DNA of 64,000 nt from Acidimicrobiales bacterium (GTDB taxonomy: Bacteria; Actinomycetota; Acidimicrobiia; Acidimicrobiales; Acidimicrobilacustridaceae). The stretch is taken from positions 372,001-436,000 of the forward strand of contig JAGYKS010000031.1 in the NCBI GenBank assembly GCA_018401565.1, read 5' to 3'. This document shows positions 33,389 to 63,815 of this stretch, piece by piece. A program made the position numbers and the translations under genes. The notes below the pieces were generated by a model that was not told where the DNA came from, did no database searches, and saw only the letters and a program-made list of their open reading frames with translations. Position 1 is the first letter of the stretch. Every line of letters begins with the position of its first letter.

Positions 33389-33490
33389 CACTTTCCTACC
33401 GAACCGCAATCGACCTGCTAGCCAAATGGGGCTCCTGCGATCACCCCAACACCACCTGATTCGACGCGAGGTATGCCTCCGCATGCCTGA

Positions 33491-33545
33491 CAGGCGAGAC
33501 GGGACAGGCGAGACGGGACAGGCGAGACGGGACAGGCGAGACGGG
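33491..33545. repeat. 14-bp tandem array, 4 copies
   Basis: Four copies of CAGGCGAGACGGGA, between the toxin-antitoxin operator and the thioesterase start. The region 33331-33598 otherwise shows no credible gene. Confidence 0.9.
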
Positions 33546-53848: not shown

Positions 53849-54536
53849 TTACCTCCGAAGCCTCACCTCCGGAGGCTTGACCCCGATCGGCGACGACGCA
53901 GCCTGGCGGCCACCGCCAACGGCACCCGGTGACGCACCGTGGAGGGGTCGGTGGCCACAGACATCGGTGATGGCCACAGGCAGCGCGTACCACGCTGACG
54001 CCACCACCTCAGTGGCCGTGCGAAGCCGACGCATGGCGGGATCGGCCCGCTCGGGGCTGCCCGGGGCCGGGCAACCGACGGCGTTCAGTCCGTGGCGGCG
54101 GGCCTCAGCCACCGCCCGGCAGATGGTACGGCGAGCTCACCACCAGGATTCGGGAGTACCCGGCGTCGGCGACCGCCGCCATGCTGCGCCGGGTGGTGGC
54201 GCCATCGAGTGACGACACAGCGTCGGCATCCACACCGGCGTCCACCAGGTAAGTGGCCATGACCACGTTTTCGTCCACACCCCGGCTCACCCCACCGCAG
54301 CACACCACCACCGGCGCCCGGCCCTGCCTCCACACCACAGCGGCACGATCGAGCCGGGCCCGCAGCTCACCGCACGGTCGCTGGCCCACCACCTCGGCGC
54401 CCAGCACCACCACGGCGTCGGCCGAGCCGGCACCGGGGCGTCGGCCGGTCCGGTCCACTGCCACGTACCCGATCGCCCCACCAGCCGAGGCCACCGCCAC
54501 CATCAGCCCACCAGCAGCTGCCACCGCAGCGGCCAC
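53849..54536 (-). CDS. YdcF/SanA-like DUF218 protein, one frameshift
   Basis: About 229 residues. N-terminal membrane anchor (MVAVASAGGAIGYVAVDRTG), then ADAVVVLGAEVVGQRPC, LDRAAVVWRQGRAPVVVCCGG, and SSPYHLP at the end of one frame. The other frame continues RHGLNAVGCPAPGSPERADP and TATEVVASAWYALPVAI. This is the DUF218 order (SSxxHxxR, then a conserved Glu). Members such as ElyC/SanA act in envelope maintenance. The join is near 54115. Its start overlaps the end of the NHLM ABC2 gene by 34 bp, so it belongs to that transcript. Confidence 0.75.
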
Positions 54537-56742
54537 GCGGACGCTGCCGTGGCCGGCCCGGCACCGTCACAGTGGCTCCGCCGGGCGGCGAGTCGGGCAA
54601 ACATTCCACCGGCGGCAAGGAGGTCATCGGGCGACCCGTCTTCCACCACCCGTCCCCGGTCCACCACCACCACCCGGTCGGCGGCGGTGATCGTGCTCAG
54701 GCGGTGGGCAACCACCACCCGGGTAATGGCCAGGTCGGCAACGCTGTCGGCCACCACCGACTGCGACGTGTTGTCGAGCGCACTGGTGGCCTCGTCGAAC
54801 AACAGCGCCACCGGGTCGGTGACCAACGCCCTGGCGATCAGCAACCGTTGACGCTGCCCGCCCGACAACAACGCACCCCGGGGCCCCACCGGGGTGTCGA
54901 GGCCGGCAGGCATGCGGTCCACGTCGGGACCCAGCCCGGCACGTTCGACGGCCCGGCGCACGGCGGTGGGGTCCACGGCGTTGGCTCCGGCCACGGCGTC
55001 GAACATGGTGCCGTCAAACAGCAGTCCGTCCTGGAGCACCACCCCGAACTGCCGGCGCACGGCGGTGAGGTCCAGGGTGGTGAGTTCATGACCGTCGAGG
55101 CGTACCGACCCCGACTCGGGCTGCACGAACCCCAGCAGCAGGCGCAGCAACGTCGACTTGCCCGACCCCGACGGACCCACCACCGCCACGTACTCTCCGG
55201 CGGCGATGCGCAGGTCGAACCCGTCGAGCACTGCGGGTCCGTCATCGGAGTACCGAAACACCACGTCGGTCAGCGCCATCTGGCCGCTCAGTGCTCCGGG
55301 ATGGTGACGATCGGGGCCGTGTTCGGTGGGGGCGGCCATGATGGCCGACGCCCTCGCCAGCACGGGCCGTGACTCGATCACGGCGATGGCACTCACGCTG
55401 ATGGCCACCATGGCCGTCAGCAACTGCAAGAACGCCACATAAAAGGCCATGAACGCGCCCGGTGAGATGTCACCGGTGGGCAGGCGCACGGCGGCGGCCA
55501 CCAGCACCACGGTGGCGATGGTGGGAAACGATCGGTCAAGCGCGCCGAGGAACCGGAAGCGTTGCAGCCGATCGAAGTCCAGTTCCGTCGAGCCGCGGAC
55601 CTCGGTTGCCCATCGGGCGAACAGGCGCCCGGCGGCGTCGGACACCCTGATCGGAGACAATGTTGTCCATGAGTTGCAGCACCATTCCGGTGACGCGCGC
55701 CCGTGTGGCCAGAAGCGTCGGCAGGCTCGCCCACTGGGCCTTTCGCGCTCGACGCAGCCGCCAGCACCACGAGTGCCACCGCCGTCACCACCACACCCAG
55801 GCCGGGATCGATGGCGATCATGACCACGGCGTTGCTGAGAGCGAACGTCCCGGTGACCAGCGTGGTGATCACCCCGTCGTCAAGGGTGGACCGGGCCCGT
55901 GTGGCGGCCAGGGCATCCTCAGCCAACCTCGCCGGGGGCCACCGACCTAGAAGAAGCTGGTGGGCAGGTCGAGCAGTCGGGCAATGACCGCCGACTGGAA
56001 CCGGTCGTCGAACCGGTCGCGGCCCCGCACCAGCGACACCCCCCGCAACAGTTGCACCGCCACGGCAGCCAGCGTTGCCGCCACCATCGCCACCAGCAGC
56101 CCCACCAGCCGGGAACGGTCAGCCAACGGCACCACCTCACCGAACACGATGCCGGTCACCACCGGCAGCACAAGCCCCAGCACCCCGCCCAGCAGGCCCG
56201 CCACGGCCACGGTCACCACGTCAGGGCCCACCCCGTTGAACGACCACCGGGTGAGCGCCGGGGTGCTGTCAGCGTTCGGCCGCCGGCACCAGCTCACTGG
56301 CATCAGTGGACAAGGCACGGCCCACCGACGCTGTCAGCCGTCGGGTGGTCCCGGCGTCGGGGTCCACCACCATGGCCGTTCGCTGCCATGGCCACACACC
56401 ACCCCTGCCGGGCACCACCGCCACGGGCCGACCATCAGAGTCGTACGCCACCATGGGCACACCAACCGCACGCCACCACCGGTCGGGCAGAGCAACCGGC
56501 CGCACCCGAAGGTGGGACGCCTCGGCAATGGCGGTCAGCGGGTCGAGCAGGCGGGCCTCGGTCGCCGGTGCTTCACTGACCGACTCACGGCCCATCGAGC
56601 GCGCCAGCACCGACACCACTGCCGCCAGACCACGGGTGCCCGCAGCGGGGCGGGGGGCACCGACCGGTGACATGGTGGCCGACAGCGAGGCAATCACCCG
56701 TCGGATCCGTCGAAGCGCGGCCATTGAGGCCATCGGGGCCAT
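54503..56742 (-). CDS. NHLM bacteriocin-type ABC exporter, ABC2 subunit, several frameshifts
   Basis: About 745 residues. The N-terminal 150 contain ASHLRVRPVALPDRWWRAVG and VAVVPGRGGVWPWQRTAMVV, diagnostic of the NHLM ABC2 family (permease/ATPase of the nitrile-hydratase-like leader-peptide export system). Six helices follow (VVTVAVAGLLGGVLGLVLPV, IARLLDLPTSFF), then a fully canonical ATPase: [54 protein letters not shown]. The frame changes near 56290, 55940, 55890 and 55690. It exports leader-carrying ribosomal peptides with ABC1 and HlyD in described systems. It lies 33 bp downstream of ABC1. Confidence 0.82.
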
Positions 56743-56768
56743 CGGGGGCCGTCGGGGCCGTCGGGGGC
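56719..56768. repeat. GGCCATCGGG/GGCCGTCGGG tandem array between ABC1 and ABC2
   Basis: Five degenerate 9-11-bp units just beyond the ABC1 stop and over the ABC2 start; the exact ABC2 start codon is uncertain for this reason. Confidence 0.75.
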
Positions 56769-56775
56769 GCGTCGC

Positions 56776-58849
56776 TCAGCCACCGACCAGCTCCCGGTAC
56801 AGGCCGTGGGCGGCCACCAGCGCATCGTGGGTGCCACGCTCGGCGACCCGACCACCGTCGAGCACCACGATCTCGTCGGCGTCACGCACCGTGGACAGGC
56901 GGTGGGCCACCACGATGCACGTGCAGCCCCGACGCCGCAGGTTGGCTTCAACATCGGCTTCCACCAACGGGTCCAGGGCGCTGGTGGCCTCGTCGAGCAC
57001 CACTGACGGCCGGATCGGTGGCCAGGGCCCGGGCGATGGCCAGCCGCTGGCGTTGCCCTCCCGACAGGTTGCGACCGCCGGGGTCGACGGGGCTGGCCAG
57101 ACCGCCCGGGCGAGCGGCGATCTCGTCGAGCAGCCCGGCATCGGCAGCCGCCCGCACCACCTGTTCGCTGGAGATAGACGGGTCGAACATGGTGATGTTG
57201 TCGGCCACCGACCCCTCCAGCAGCGTCACCTCCTGAGCCACGTAGGCCACCGACCGTGCCAACACCGCCCGGGGCAGCAACGCCCGGTTGACGCCGTCGA
57301 AGCTGACCGAACCGGCCCACGGTTCGAGTTGGCCGGTGAGCAGCCTGGCCACCGTGGACTTGCCGCTGCCCGACCGGCCCACCAGCGCCAGACGCCGGCC
57401 CGCAGACACGTCGAGGTCCAGGCCCTCGATGAGGGCGGGCCCGGCGGGATCGAAGCCGAACGTCAGGCCCCGGACCTGCACCGACCCGCTGAGCCGACCC
57501 GCCCCAAACGACGGCGTCAGCGGCGTCTGCGGCGACGGCGTGAGCGACGGCGTGAGCGGCGATGGCGTCAGCGGCGTCAGCTGCGACGACGGCACCACTG
57601 ACGCCACTGCCAGCTCGATGTCCACCGGCTCGAACAGCACCTCGTTGCGCTGTTGCACCTGGCCCGCCATGTTCTGGATCAGCACCCCGGAGTAGCTGAG
57701 TTGGTTCACCGGCACCAGCACCGCCGCCAGCAGCCCCTGGAACGCCACCAGGGTGCCCAGCGTGATGTCACCGTTCATCACCTGCAGCGCCCCCACCGAC
57801 ACCACCACCGCCAGTGCCACCACCTGCACCATGGTGGGGATGGCCGCAAGCACCTGACTCACCAGGCCGAGCCGGGAGGTGGCCACCGCCAGCCGTTGCC
57901 GCTGGGCTGACCACGCCACGAAGTACTCGTGCTTCGAGGCGGTCGCCTTGATGCTCTCGGCCGCCTCGATGCCGGCAACGGTGATGGCGTCGAGGTCCAC
58001 CGAGGCGTCGAGCACCGCGTTCTGGTGGGGTCCGCGTCGGCGGAACACCTGCCGGACCACAACCGCGTTCACCACCAGGATCACCAACGTGACCGCGGTG
58101 AGGAACGGGTCGAACACCACCATGGCCCCGAGGTAAAACACCACCGACACCACGTTGAGGGCCGCACCGGGTGCCAGCATCCCGGCGATGAACCCGGTGC
58201 GCTGGTTCACCGCCGACCGCATGGCCAGCGTCCCCGCCCCCACTGAGGCCACAACACGGGCCGGCAGACGCAGCAGATGCCACACGAAGTTGGCGCTGTT
58301 GCGGATCGTGATCCGCTGGGCCAGCCGGGCATGGGTGGCGTACAGCAACCACCCCAGGGCGAACTGCACCACGGCGGCACCCACCAGCAACACCACGACG
58401 GCGCCGTCACGGTCACGGTCCCCGGCCACCAACACGGTGTCGACGAAATACCGAACCAAAGCCGGCACAGCAAGTCCCGGGATCACCAGTGTGAGCCCCA
58501 CCACCAGGGTGAACAGCAAGGCCCCGGCGGCCCCCCGGTACTGCTCGACGATGCCCCGGCGAACGTCAGCCGAATCGGCCACAAACACCGGACCCGGCGT
58601 GAGCGGTGGCACTTGCTCGCCCACTGACGCACCCCGGTCGCGGGTCTCAAGGCCATGGGCGACCGCCACCGAGGTGATGGCGGCGGCGTCGTTGAGGGCG
58701 TCGAGCGGCACCATCATCCGCTCGATGTCGGCGCTGTCGACCACCCGGCCATTGGCGGCCAGCAACCCCACCACCGCCTGGGCGCGAGCCGCCTGAGAGT
58801 GGGCAGCCTGCGAGTGAGCAGCCTGCGACGCACCACCGACACTGTCCAT
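56776..58849 (-). CDS. NHLM bacteriocin-type ABC exporter, ABC1-like subunit without C39 peptidase, one frameshift
   Basis: About 690 residues. Residues 1-130 have none of the C39 leader-peptidase features: there is no Cys at all and no ECGAA-type motif. They begin with a [18 protein letters not shown] repeat. Six helices follow ([40 protein letters not shown]). A Thr/Pro repeat linker ([19 protein letters not shown]) precedes the ATPase: [56 protein letters not shown], intact once the frame change near 57010 is corrected. It is downstream of the HlyD gene, as in NHLM operons. Without the peptidase it must rely on another protease or on leaderless cargo. Confidence 0.78.
57510..57592. repeat. 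GACGGCGTSAGCGGC-type array coding the ABC1 linker
   Basis: Degenerate 12-18-bp repeats of GGCGTGAGCGACGGCGTGAG type. On the coding (minus) strand they give a Leu-Thr-Pro-Ser linker between the membrane and ATPase domains. Confidence 0.8.
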
Positions 58850-58908
58850 CGGCTGGCGTTCGGGGTGTTCGCTGGTGTGTGCCGGGGTCACCGCAACGTC
58901 ATCAGCAG

Positions 58909-59733
58909 TCAGGGCAAAAGCCGGTCGATGGGACGCTGGTCGTCGAGGATCACCGTGACCGACGCCAACGACCCAGCCGTGATGGCAAACGGTGGCCCCG
59001 ATCCCGCCGACCACGCCAGGCCGCTGGGGTTGGTGTCGTCAAGGTCCATGACCACGCGGACTTCGATCACCGGCTCAGATCCGGCCAGCAGGTCCACCAG
59101 CGCTGCGTTGCGACCCACAAGCAACTCCACCCGGGCCCGGTCCACAGATGCCGGCGACACCGAGGCAACCGTGCCGGTGATGGAGCCGTACTCGGCTGCC
59201 GGCGCCGACGACGGCGCCACGAACGCCTGCATGCCCACATCGACTTGATTGCCTTCAGGTTCAGGCACGAACACAACAACCTCCAGCACATCACTGAAGG
59301 GCTCGACGGTGGCGATGGACCCACCGGCGACGTCGAATCCACCCACCTTCACCAGCACCTGCAGCACCGTTCCGTCCACGGTGCTGGTCACGTCTTCAAT
59401 GTCGCCGTCGGCAGTGACTATGCGGGCCACTGTCTGGCCATCGGCCACCTCGTCGCCCACATCGATGAACAGTTCGGTGACCACGCCTTCTGAAGCGATG
59501 CCGAGTTCGTACAGGCCGTCGGGCGGGATGACCAGACCCTGACCGCGCGCAACGGTGGGTGCCTGGCCGAACACCGACCATCCCACCACGGCAACAACCA
59601 CGGCCACCACGGCGGCAAGACCAAGCCATCCGGTTCGGGTGGTGGCGGCCAAACGACTGTCGAGCCCGTCAATGGGCGATCGCTGGTCTGATCCCGCCAC
59701 CGAACCCCCCTGTCCACGTGCCGCCACGGGCAT
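58909..59733 (-). CDS. NHLM bacteriocin-type secretion protein (HlyD family)
   Basis: 274 residues. Short cytoplasmic start, one helix (LGLAAVVAVVVAVVGWSVFG), then a barrel-sandwich/lipoyl segment (GVVTELFIDVGDEVADGQTVARIV, VDGTVLQVLVKVGGFDVAGG) and a beta-barrel (PEGNQVDVGMQAFVAPSSAP). It ends VTVILDDQRPIDRLLP, the C-terminal signature of the NHLM HlyD family. The coiled coil is short or missing, as usual in this family, which works without an outer membrane channel here. Start is ATG 59733, or a leaderless GTG 6 bases later, because TACAAT abuts the ATG. Intact. Confidence 0.82.
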   Translation of the reverse strand: MPVAARGQGGSVAGSDQRSPIDGLDSRLAATTRTGWLGLAAVVAVVVAVVGWSVFGQAPTVARGQGLVIPPDGLYELGIASEGVVTELFIDVGDEVADGQTVARIVTADGDIEDVTSTVDGTVLQVLVKVGGFDVAGGSIATVEPFSDVLEVVVFVPEPEGNQVDVGMQAFVAPSSAPAAEYGSITGTVASVSPASVDRARVELLVGRNAALVDLLAGSEPVIEVRVVMDLDDTNPSGLAWSAGSGPPFAITAGSLASVTVILDDQRPIDRLLP

Positions 59734-59739
59734 ATTGTA
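59734..59739 (-). promoter_or_regulatory. Candidate -10 box (TACAAT) of the NHLM export operon
   Basis: On the minus strand TACAAT directly precedes ATG 59733. If it is a -10 element, transcription would begin about 6-7 bases on, at the GTG at 59727-59725, giving a leaderless mRNA of the kind common in actinobacteria. No Shine-Dalgarno site precedes the ATG, which agrees. No good -35 box is seen. Confidence 0.4.
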
Positions 59740-59812
59740 GACCGATGTCCAAAGTCCCCCGGTTGCACGACCACAGGACCCAAGGCACGGCCAGACGACG
59801 TGGGGGTAGGCA

Positions 59813-60573
59813 TGGACAATGCGGCACTCGGCAGGGCAGCGGCAACCTTCGCCAACGGGGCCACCGGCCGTGTGGCCCACATCGAGGTGCTGGGTCGGTC
59901 CGACACCCGTGCCCGCCACGGCGACGACGTCGGCTACCCCGCCGCATCGCTCAGCAAGGTTCCGCTGGCCGCAGCAGCCCTGCTTGCCGGCCTCGACGGC
60001 ACCCTCGACCTGTCCGCACCGGTGCCGTCGTCAGCGTGGGGTTCCACGATCTACCCGAGCGTGCTGGGCGCCCTTCACAGCGACCTCACCGTGGGCGAGC
60101 TGGTGGCGCTCAGTATCGTCACCAGCGACAACCCCGCCGCCCAGGCCGTTCTCGAACGGCTGCCCGCCGGGGCATGGGAGCGGGCGGTGACCACGCTGGG
60201 CTGCCCGCAGATGGCCAAGCCGGCCGGGTACGGCGACGACGACTTCGACGGCATGCACCACCAGCTCACCACCGTCGACGAGCAGGTGGCCGTGCTGACG
60301 GCCATCGCCGCTCGCGACGAGCTTGCCCCGCTGTACGGGTGGATGGGGTCGAGCCTGCTCAACCAGCGGGTGTCGGCCATGGTGGCGCCACCGGTCCGGT
60401 TCCACCACAAGACCGGATCACTCGACGGGGTACTACATGACGTGGGGATCCTCGACACTGGCACCCACCGGGCGGTAGTCGTGGCGCTCACCCGCGATCA
60501 GGCCGATCCCGTTGCCACCCAGGCGGCCATGGTGGACCTCGGCATCGCCGTCACCAGCGCACTGACTACCTGA
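59813..60573 (+). CDS. Class A beta-lactamase-fold serine hydrolase without signal peptide
   Basis: 253 residues. All three active-site motifs are present: SLSK in GYPAASLSKVPLAAAAL (nucleophile Ser, Lys), SDN in LSIVTSDNPAAQAV, KTG in FHHKTGSLDGVLHDVG. No signal peptide, no lipobox and no clear Omega-loop Glu motif, so an antibiotic-degrading role is doubtful; it may be a cytoplasmic peptidase or esterase. It is transcribed divergently from the NHLM export operon across an 80-bp gap and could process the exported peptide, which is speculation from position. ATG 59813 is preferred; GTG 59800 is out of frame. Confidence 0.8.
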
Positions 60574-60867
60574 CCGGCCGCTCACCTGGACTGCTGCGCT
60601 GGAGCCGCTCAGGCGACCCCAGTAAACAAAGTTCGCCATCTTCATGCTCGTCGCACCGGCGCACCGGTGGATCCGGGAAGTAGAATTTGGGTATGGCCAC
60701 CATTGTTCCCTCCAATCCCATGGGGGAGCCTCTCAACGATCCGCAGTGTCGTCTCCTTTGCCCAGTGGAGCCCCCAACGACGTCAGCACTCAAGGCTTCA
60801 CCTCGCTTTGCTGACCGCCAGCGTTGGCACCAGCTGCAGGGTCACTCTCCCAGGAACCGATGGCCAA

Positions 60868-61830
60868 ATGACCCGCCCGCAATTCATGACCAACCTGAGC
60901 AGGAAGCTGCGCCACAGGCGCAGGCGTCGGCGTGATTCACCACGCAGGAGTTGGTCTGAAAGAGTTTCACTTTTCACCCACAACCTCACCCGGCCGCTGC
61001 GCCACAGACGCCGGAAACGGCGCAACTCCCCGCGACAAACCTGGTTCGAGCGACTGGAGTTGCTTTCCTACAACCTCACACGGCCGCTACGTCGCAGACG
61101 CCAGAAACGGCTCGCCTCTCCGGGAAGCGGCTGGGCCGCGCGACTGGAGTTGCTTACCTACAACCTCACACGGCCGCTGCGTCGCAGACGCCAGAAACGG
61201 CTCGCCTCTCCGGAAAGCAGATGGACTGTCAAGCTCTCGCAGTTGTTGCGCCATCTGACCCGGCCAGTGCGCCGTGTACTTCGGGTGTGGCTCCGTCCAG
61301 TTCGCAAGAAGTGGAACAACAGATCGCTGTCTCAGCGAACGAGTTACGGCCTGCTGGCTCTGGGGGTCGTGATCCTTGTGGTTGGTGCCGCCGTGATACT
61401 GCCGAATGTGGGACGGGTAGCGACGTCCTCGTTCAACGCCGTTCAGGGCCGTTCCGAGGTTGCACAAAGAGCTGCTGAGGTTCCACAGGGAACTGTCGAG
61501 CTTGACACCACAACCACCCAAGGCAGGATCGTGGCGTGCGGTGACCCAGACATCACTACTGCCATTCAGGACGCCCTTCCCGAAGCACAAGTCGTTGGCG
61601 TGCTTTGCAGCACCAACTGGCTGTCGGTGAGCTTGACTGCCGGTGGAGACCAACAGTCGAGGCTCACGGCGTATGCCAGGTCAGGTGGTCAAGGCTTGTG
61701 GGAACTGGTCGCAATCACCACTGACGATGATCAATCCGTGGTCGGTGATTCAGCAAGGGTCCCCCGAGGGGTAAGAGCACTTGCTGATCAGGCTTTCGCT
61801 GCTCCGCTAACTCCCACTGCCGGTAGCTGA
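60868..61830 (+). CDS. Single-pass membrane protein with 30-residue Arg-rich tandem repeats
   Basis: 320 residues. Residues 10-129 are four 30-residue repeats of consensus LTRPLRxRRxKRxxSP then W..RLELL.YN. A degenerate fifth (LTRPVRRVLRVWLRPVRKKW) follows to about residue 153. The region is extremely basic, with an amphipathic Leu/Trp face. A transmembrane helix follows at about 163-183 (LLALGVVILVVGAAVILP), then an outside domain of about 135 residues with two Cys (RIVACGDPD, VGVLCSTNW). A basic N-terminus implies it stays in the cytoplasm, where it could bind nucleic acid or acidic lipids. ATG 60868 is chosen, with AGGAA upstream. No family is recognised. Confidence 0.7.
   Translation: MTRPQFMTNLSRKLRHRRRRRRDSPRRSWSERVSLFTHNLTRPLRHRRRKRRNSPRQTWFERLELLSYNLTRPLRRRRQKRLASPGSGWAARLELLTYNLTRPLRRRRQKRLASPESRWTVKLSQLLRHLTRPVRRVLRVWLRPVRKKWNNRSLSQRTSYGLLALGVVILVVGAAVILPNVGRVATSSFNAVQGRSEVAQRAAEVPQGTVELDTTTTQGRIVACGDPDITTAIQDALPEAQVVGVLCSTNWLSVSLTAGGDQQSRLTAYARSGGQGLWELVAITTDDDQSVVGDSARVPRGVRALADQAFAAPLTPTAGS
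60895..61254 (+). repeat. 90-bp direct repeats, four copies, coding the Arg-rich repeats
   Basis: Units at 60895, 60985, 61075 and 61165, each exactly 90 bp and in frame. Copies 3 and 4 are almost identical over their first 50 bases, so duplication there is recent; copy 1 is the most divergent. Confidence 0.9.
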
Positions 61831-61938
61831 CCACCAGTCACCCTCACTGGGCGGATCCGGCACGCTCGGAAACCGGTGGTTACCCAGAGAACGAGACGCT
61901 TGCCACTATTGCATTCGCCTGGTTACGGGCAGCGAGCG

Positions 61939-62538
61939 TCACCGACACAACGTCCGAAGCCAAAGGCTTTGTGTAGACACTGGGAGAAAGGTGGTGTCTG
62001 GGACGGTAACTGCTGCAAGAGTTCCGCAGCAACGAGTGCGCCTGCCAAACGCACCTGCGTAATTGAAGGACGTCGGGGAAGTCGCCTGCCAGATCACCGA
62101 GACCGACCTTCCGAAGAATGAGGCGCCAGCATCAGATGGATCCGGATCGCCGTTAGAGCTGGAGGCGGGCGGCGACGGCGGGAGGAACCGTGCGGTGGTG
62201 GTGGTGGGAGTGCTTGCGGCTGCTGCGGCGCTGGGGAGGACCAGGTAGGTGAGCCCGGCGGCGGCAACGCCCGCAGCGCTGAGCTGCATGACCCGCCGAC
62301 GAGAGAACCTTGACGACGACGAATCGTCTTTCAGCACGATCCCGGCCTCAACCAAACGGTCGATGGCAGCTTGTTCGCTTTCGGTGGGATCAACGATCTG
62401 CTCACCGTTCGTGAGACGAACAATCACCGAGTGCTCGACACCGGTAAGACGCACCACAAACCCGCCTGCCGGGTCATGCACCAGTGCTTCTTGTCCAACC
62501 AGTTCGAAACGTAGCGCTGTGTTTAGGGTCGTGACCAT
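61939..62538 (-). CDS. PqqD-like domain fused to a twin-Arg-type signal anchor
   Basis: About 200 residues. Residues 1-75 (LRFELVGQEALVHDPAGGFV, RLTNGEQIVDPTESEQAAID, LVEAGIVL) follow the PqqD-like/RiPP-recognition-element pattern: a three-stranded start and three helices ending in L..aGi. Next come FSRRRVMQLSAAGVAAAGLTY and LVLPSAAAAA, an RR motif with hydrophobic core resembling a Tat signal, though placed internally. The mature tail is Pro/Ser/Thr-rich, then short and beta-like. The C-terminal 50 residues may be frameshifted: the alternative frame ends SDVVSVTLAARNQANAIVAS near 61888. It is a candidate partner or cargo of the nearby NHLM exporter. Confidence 0.6.
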   Translation of the reverse strand: MVTTLNTALRFELVGQEALVHDPAGGFVVRLTGVEHSVIVRLTNGEQIVDPTESEQAAIDRLVEAGIVLKDDSSSSRFSRRRVMQLSAAGVAAAGLTYLVLPSAAAAASTPTTTTARFLPPSPPASSSNGDPDPSDAGASFFGRSVSVIWQATSPTSFNYAGAFGRRTRCCGTLAAVTVPDTTFLPVSTQSLWLRTLCR

Positions 62539-62760
62539 GTCGAGACGATAGGGCTACTGGTCACGCCATGCAAGTGAATCTTGCTACTCACCCAATAAAT
62601 GTTTGCGTCCCTGCCACAGAACGCGTGGATGCCAAAAGTGGTGCCGCCAGCTTGGGCAACAACGATTAGGCCTGCCGCTCCCCCAGCCGGGACCCCCTTT
62701 GCTGGCCGCCGGAGCGCTCCAACCCGGCCTGATTGAAACTCCGGCAACTACAGTCGCAAC

Positions 62761-63787
62761 GTGCGCGCTGCAACGTTCCGATCAGCCAAATCAACCACCG
62801 CCGCACCTGTCGTTGAGCCGAACAACGCGCTCCCCGATCAGCCACCCACCCGTCGGGGCGACACAGCGTTGAGCTGGGCCCTGCACGGGCTCGTGGTCGC
62901 CGGAGCCGCCGGCGCAGTGGCCATCGACCGCAAGCTGCGTCGATCCACCAGAGTGCGAGCCGAAATAGCGACGCCCATTGTCACTGCAGCGTTCTACGGC
63001 GTCTTGTGGGCCGTTGAGTCCCGCCGACCCCACCGCCAACAGTGGCGTCCGGTGGGCGCTGAAGTTCGGACCGACGCAGCTTTTTTGGCGTCGGTGCTGG
63101 CTACCCAGGCCGCCACCACCGCCATGGCCGCACCCTTGGCCAACCGCATCGGCCCCAATCTGGGAGTCGGGCGGCTCCCGCTGCCCGTGGGCGTGATCAT
63201 GGCCGTTGTTGCTTTCGACCTCGGCCACTCACGCCTGCACCAGCTGAGCCATCGCTGGGGCCCGGCGTGGCGTGTGCATTCGGTCCACCACAGCCCCACC
63301 CGGCTGTACTGGTTCAACGCCACGCGTTTCCACATTGCCGAGATGGCGGTCGACATGACCATGGAAGCCGTCGTGCTGGCCGTGCTTGGCCTCAACCGTG
63401 ACCAACACATCGCCTTATCAGGCGGTGCGCTCCATGTACGGCCAGCTCCAGCACAGCAACATTGAGATGCGCAGCGGGGTCCTCGACCACGTGCTGTCCA
63501 CACCCGACCTGCACCGGTGGCACCACTCCACGGTCTACGACGAGGGCGACAGCAACTACGGAGCGGTGACGTCGGTGTGGGACCGGGTGTTCGGCACCTG
63601 GTTCCGGCCCACGCAGCGCCGTGGGCCCGACGAACTCGGTGTGGGCCGCATGCCCAACTTCCCTGAGCGGTTCTGGGAGCTCGAACGAGTCCCGTTTGAT
63701 TGGGACGTGATCCGTCAACGAAATGCCGCCACGTGGGAACCCACCACCGCCGCCATGGCCGACACACGCCACAGCGGCGCATCCTGA
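62761..63787 (+). CDS. Sterol desaturase/fatty acid hydroxylase-family membrane enzyme, one frameshift
   Basis: About 342 residues, several membrane helices, with the di-iron His clusters of the family: FDLGHSRLHQLSHRW, VHSVHHSPTRLYW and, after the frame change near 63415, LQHSNIEM and DLHRWHHSTVYDEG. These enzymes hydroxylate or desaturate sterols, fatty acids or carotenoids at the membrane. The GTG start at 62761 gives a disordered tail of about 40 residues before the first helix. The stop lies in a 7-bp array. The 220 bp upstream hold no credible gene. Confidence 0.85.
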
Positions 63788-63815
63788 ATCCTGAATCCTG
63801 AATCCTCAATCCTGC
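63781..63815 (+). repeat. 7-bp ATCCTGA array with stops in all three frames
   Basis: ATCCTGA three times, then ATCCTCA and ATCCTG. TGA at 63785-63787 is the gene's stop, and TGAs at 63792 and 63799 follow at 7-bp steps, so each frame is closed. Confidence 0.9.

Follow-up and report, generated by a model that had tools for sequence, protein, structure and literature searches.

The stretch of DNA analysed here (the window, 64,000 nucleotides) carries a gene for a protein with an array of 30-residue units, followed by a transmembrane helix and an external part (Table 1). The gene lies in a G+C-poor patch of about 2 kb, which is flanked by a beta-lactamase-like gene and a fatty-acid-hydroxylase-like gene. 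No insertion-type repeats bounding the patch were found. An AGGA motif is located 12 nt upstream of the ATG start, and a sigma-70-like promoter was not found for the gene. An alternative in-frame GTG start at 60667 would give a protein of 387 residues.

Table 1. Positions of the repeat gene, its parts and the neighbouring features in the window
Feature	Position	Strand	Remarks
Two ABC exporter-like genes and an HlyD-like gene	54503-59919	-
Class-A beta-lactamase-like protein	59800-60573	+	Pfam Beta-lactamase2, 5e-28
G+C-poor patch	60574-62760		G+C 0.59-0.65 (window mean 0.68); holds the repeat gene and one Tat-signal ORF
Repeat gene, whole	60868-61830	+	320 aa, ATG start; frame backed by shuffle, copy-divergence and composition tests
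Start and partial first unit, residues 1-28	60868-60951	+	NLSRKLRHRRRRRRDSPRRS
Unit A, residues 29-58	60952-61041	+	WSERVSLFTHNLTRPLRHRRRKRRNSPRQT
Unit B, residues 59-88	61042-61131	+	WFERLELLSYNLTRPLRRRRQKRLASPGSG
Unit C, residues 89-118	61132-61221	+	WAARLELLTYNLTRPLRRRRQKRLASPESR
Degenerate unit D, residues 119-148	61222-61311	+	With strongly amphipathic juxtamembrane helix LLRHLTRPVRRVLRVWLR
Single transmembrane helix, about residues 160-182	61345-61413	+	19-residue hydropathy up to 2.73
External part, residues 183-320	61414-61827	+	pI about 4.4; predicted helix 227-236, four strands 240-285, helix 300-311
Cys224	61537-61539	+	External part
Cys247	61606-61608	+	External part
Tat-signal ORF, 199 aa	61939-62538	-	N-terminal region of 78 residues, then Tat signal (TIGR01409)

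Reading frame and repeat array

Wrong-frame reading of high-G+C DNA yields Arg-rich nonsense, and the frame of the repeat gene was therefore put to test. Of 500 dinucleotide shuffles made from the 2.2-kb region, one matched the stop-free frame of 418 codons. In the gene frame, the repeat copies differ at 79 amino acids, compared with 105.1 ± 4.5 expected when the same base changes are placed randomly (0 of 1000), both summed over six copy pairs that are not independent; for single pairs in the N-phase, P ranged from 0.0005 (units 1 and 2) to 0.19 (units 2 and 3). This deficit was absent in four of the other five frames. The remaining antisense frame, which shares the wobble position, showed an echo (91 versus 109.8 expected) and has stops. 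Protein sequence is thus spared between copies only in the gene frame and its stop-bearing antisense echo, indicating that the Arg richness is not a wrong-frame artefact. The Arg/aromatic pattern was kept between copies beyond expectation in the same test. The codon score of the gene frame was the highest of the six in both the repeat part and the C-terminal part, yet low in absolute terms, and G+C by codon position was flat (0.63/0.56/0.64, versus 0.74/0.52/0.86 in the upstream gene). The repeat gene is real but atypical, and the sequence of the repeat protein is under selection.

The initial annotation described four exact 90-bp in-frame repeats. This holds for the period only, since the copies are equal in length and phase but not in sequence. 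Trp-phase units begin at Trp29, Trp59, Trp89 and Trp119, with a spacing of 90 bp and zero indels, and their DNA identity is 42 to 91% (38 to 82 of 90 bases alike). The array consists of three good 30-residue units, with a partial divergent first unit (residues 9-38 in the N-phase) and a degenerate last unit that adjoins the membrane; TRF reported 2.7 copies at 84%. Successive copies match at 60 (29 versus 59), 82 (59 versus 89) and 39 (89 versus 119) of 90 bases, and pairs other than B and C have 38 to 60 in common. The near-identical pair previously placed at copies 3 and 4 exists, but it comprises residues 59-88 and 89-118, i.e., units B and C (61042-61221), which share 91% of their DNA and 25 of 30 residues. 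Their near-identity fits a fairly recent duplication. Differences between the older copies are mainly synonymous, and units B and C have no synonymous excess. The proposal of an ongoing expansion was not sustained: 8 of 90 bases still separate the two closest copies, and with the gene present in a single genome such expansion cannot be demonstrated.

Residues 1-155, predicted to be cytoplasmic, contain 28% Arg and 32% Arg plus Lys, with a net charge of +44. This region has 50 Arg and Lys residues, and no stretch of that length in eight neighbouring proteins exceeds 24. The coordinates, frame and strong positive charge initially reported were all confirmed. Lys accounts for 7 of the 320 residues. 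The neighbouring proteins also favour Arg (6.7%) over Lys (0.9%), and the choice of Arg in the repeat protein is therefore partly compositional, a G+C effect.

Predicted topology and search for relatives

The hydropathy profile contains one hydrophobic segment sufficient in length for membrane crossing. The external part is acidic, with a charge of -6, and holds the only two Cys of the protein. The predicted N-in/C-out topology fits the hydrophobicity profile and the charge distribution (+44 inside and -6 outside, with both Cys outside). Hydropathy, charge distribution and Cys location thus agree with the single membrane tether and external C-terminal domain of the initial annotation.

AlphaFold, run on the single sequence with no alignment, predicted helices at residues 29-41 (unit A), 59-75 (unit B), 88-105 (unit C), 116-128 and 132-149, followed by a long helix through the membrane. 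The regular Trp/Leu pattern reported earlier is real, and one helix per unit is predicted at low confidence (pLDDT about 41 to 57 in the units), beginning at or near each Trp. In the predicted layout of a unit, an amphipathic helix opens with Trp and closes with LTRPL, and an Arg cluster comes next. Amphipathicity is moderate, with hydrophobic moments of 0.47 to 0.54 in the units, exceeding just about 90 to 95% of shuffles. The juxtamembrane helix has a moment of 0.75, a value that one of 2000 shuffled versions of unit D attained, and pLDDT in the juxtamembrane and transmembrane helices was about 73 to 80. Outside the membrane, a helix, four strands and a helix are predicted (core pLDDT about 66 to 77), and the external domain was modelled alone as well. 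In a fold search of the PDB with the external-domain model, the best match was weak (E = 0.17 and TM-score 0.34, to a designed protein with a cystatin fold), and no match at E ≤ 0.001 was found; cystatin-like and NTF2-like folds were considered. It was considered whether the C-terminal domain might be a case of a common actinobacterial external domain starting with C-x-D-P. A DNA pattern for such a domain finds the repeat gene, but its other matches are about as numerous as those of the reversed-pattern control.

No profile in Pfam, NCBIfam, PHROGs or PADLOC matched the whole protein or its parts above cut-off, and no characterised family matching the whole protein was found in these collections or the PDB. 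The best sub-threshold profiles (TIGR00271 at 0.04 and phrog_11076 at 0.096) both lie over the transmembrane helix and are far from significance, and a search with phrog_11076 matched nowhere, controls included. No relative was found among PDB sequences, in 85,000 species genomes, in viral contigs and phages (phages queried with the whole protein) or in plasmids (queried with the transmembrane and external part only). The same was true of 148 genomes queried with the external domain and, with the whole protein, of 397 genomes of the order Acidimicrobiales and of 99 near-relative genomes, where weak matches from E = 0.005 upward were of low identity and several had internal stops. Weak genome matches with a locus, inspected singly, were wrong-frame or otherwise unrelated noise. 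Among 397 genomes of the phylum, the whole protein had no true relative; one match at E = 6e-5 (G662:C57, 1501-1737) is interrupted by two stops and corresponds to the 3' end of a membrane-protein gene duplicated in tandem. There, a gene for a multi-pass membrane protein has its final ~31 residues and its stop codon repeated in tandem at the contig end, which is perhaps an assembly artefact.

Both same-genus genomes are without the repeat gene, the own genome has no paralogue, and literature searches returned nothing specific to such a protein. The statement that the protein belongs to no described family therefore stands, as no database or genome search returned a relative of the whole or its parts. 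By these searches, the repeat protein is an orphan, carried by one uncultured Acidimicrobiales genome among those searched. Orphan genes are common and this status is ordinary; the charge and regularity of the cytoplasmic array are unusual.

Possible function of the basic array

Helices, topology and external fold are predictions, and what the array may bind, and why, is an inference. A membrane-tied polybasic array that begins as amphipathic helices would bind polyanions by the inner leaflet, whether nucleic acid, anionic lipid or both. The roles suggested initially, a nucleoid or RNA tether or an anionic-lipid binder, are both reasonable, and the computed evidence separates neither from the other. 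We tentatively favour a membrane-surface polyanion scaffold that would hold nucleic acid at anionic lipid, resembling Rv3852 in its working and unrelated to it in origin. In such a single-pass, N-in/C-out protein, the units would be arrayed in the cytoplasm; in each, an amphipathic helix (W..RL.LL.YNLTRPL) would lead into a flexible cluster of Arg residues (RRRRQKR) and a Ser-Pro linker. The inner leaflet would carry the unit helices and the stronger juxtamembrane helix. The Arg clusters would grip polyanions non-specifically; most likely these are nucleic acid, either nucleoid DNA or RNA, kept against anionic lipid. The transmembrane helix would join this array to the small folded external domain. 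Two points favour nucleic acid at the membrane. The Arg clusters are longer than would be required for a membrane helix, and the membrane-anchored Rv3852, likewise actinobacterial and built on a similar plan, uses basic repeats to bind DNA.

Rv3852 of Mycobacterium tuberculosis is the sole studied protein with a like anatomy that was found; it is a membrane-anchored, nucleoid-associated protein whose Lys-rich repeats bind DNA and whose transmembrane helix anchors it (PMC8233713, PMC4433263). Both proteins are actinobacterial, with short basic cytoplasmic repeats, one transmembrane helix and a lineage-restricted distribution. The repeats of Rv3852, however, are PAKK tetrapeptides, a type absent from the 30-residue Arg/Trp/Leu units, and its transmembrane helix forms the very C-terminus and is followed by no external domain, whereas the repeat protein has about 138 residues beyond the helix. 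BLASTP between the two showed no similarity (E = 1.6 over 15 residues). Because the sequence and architecture tests for kinship failed, the repeat protein was filed as putatively working like Rv3852 and not as a member. The positively charged N-terminal tail of FrzCD places this protein on the nucleoid without sequence specificity (PMC5716589). FrzCD is a cytoplasmic chemoreceptor and has a basic tail or region in common with the plan of the repeat protein. To our knowledge, it has neither a transmembrane helix nor repeats. RNase E combines a membrane-targeting helix with an Arg-rich RNA-binding sequence. In simulation, this amphipathic helix prefers anionic lipids via flanking basic residues (PMC4372235). 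An amphipathic helix with basic flanks at the inner leaflet is likewise predicted here, but RNase E has no transmembrane helix and no tandem array, its helix belongs to a large enzyme, and no similarity to the repeat protein was found.

The scaffold reading is weakened by the single-sequence helix prediction with its low pLDDT in the units, by unit moments that exceed no more than about 90 to 95% of shuffles and by the partly compositional preference for Arg. No homologue was found, Rv3852 lacks both an external domain and sequence similarity, and the genes near the repeat gene include none for nucleoid, RNA or division functions. It is possible, though rather unlikely, that the array instead organises anionic lipid: helices and Arg clusters would gather inner-leaflet phosphatidylglycerol or cardiolipin, and in the cell no nucleic acid would be bound. 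Trp-led amphipathic helices flanked by Arg, the very strong juxtamembrane helix and the simulated behaviour of the RNase E helix are consistent with such an organiser, but Arg clusters of 6 to 8 go far beyond the needs of a membrane helix, and the Pro within each helix (LTRPL) restricts helix length.

It is unlikely that the external domain is the working part, which would sense or hold a partner that is secreted or in the wall, and that the basic region serves only as an electrostatic stop in the cytoplasm and an anchor for topology, with a repeat number of little importance. The compact alpha-beta4-alpha prediction, obtained without an alignment, and the location of both Cys point to a role for this domain; a few Arg would be enough for topology, however, selection between copies maintains the pattern, and no relative of the domain was found in the searches. 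We also doubt that the gene is a young or decaying orphan ORF without a settled role, its repeats arising from slippage-type duplication in G+C-poor DNA. The missing relatives (two congeners included), the weak codon-position pattern, the low codon score, the lack of a sigma-70-like promoter, the G+C-poor patch and the absence of a synonymous excess between units B and C would fit such an origin. Against it stand the best-of-six frame in each gene part, the 418 stop-free codons, the hydrophobic segment with a predicted external fold and the mainly synonymous differences between older copies.

Should the protein bind DNA or RNA, actinobacteria would have, beside Rv3852, a second membrane-anchored binder of nucleic acid that was built independently. 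Unlike Rv3852, it has a predicted external domain, and the copy number of its modular array is directly testable. The weight of this is modest, since it concerns one orphan gene in one genome (41 contigs). It is improbable, though conceivable, that the protein is a new lineage-restricted kind of tether across the membrane. Its grip on nucleic acid at the membrane would depend on how many Arg/Trp repeats it has, and coupling to the external domain through one helix would link the envelope state with nucleoid or RNA position in one small protein.

Neighbouring genes and other tandem arrays

The beta-lactamase-like protein keeps the SxxK, SDN and KTG motifs and scores 40 bits against an NCBIfam class A cut-off of 200. 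It is present in one of two congeners and in one other family member; the congener's relative, 57% identical, has different genes downstream. The first ~100 residues of the Tat-signal ORF have three more matches in the own genome (C11:105537, C19:324459 and C19:313180) and none in 40 relatives. Its C-terminal half looks atypical and may be degraded. For the 688-residue ABC exporter-like protein, the best model was NHLP bacteriocin export ABC1 (432 bits versus a cut-off of 853); the model is covered only from position 139, and the peptidase part may therefore be missing. Over the whole window (1-64000), TRF gave 42 rows of short tandem arrays, mostly with periods of 7 to 36 bp, within and between genes, for example at 33489-33545 (14 bp × 4.1, 100%) and 63781-63814 (ATCCTGA × 4.9).
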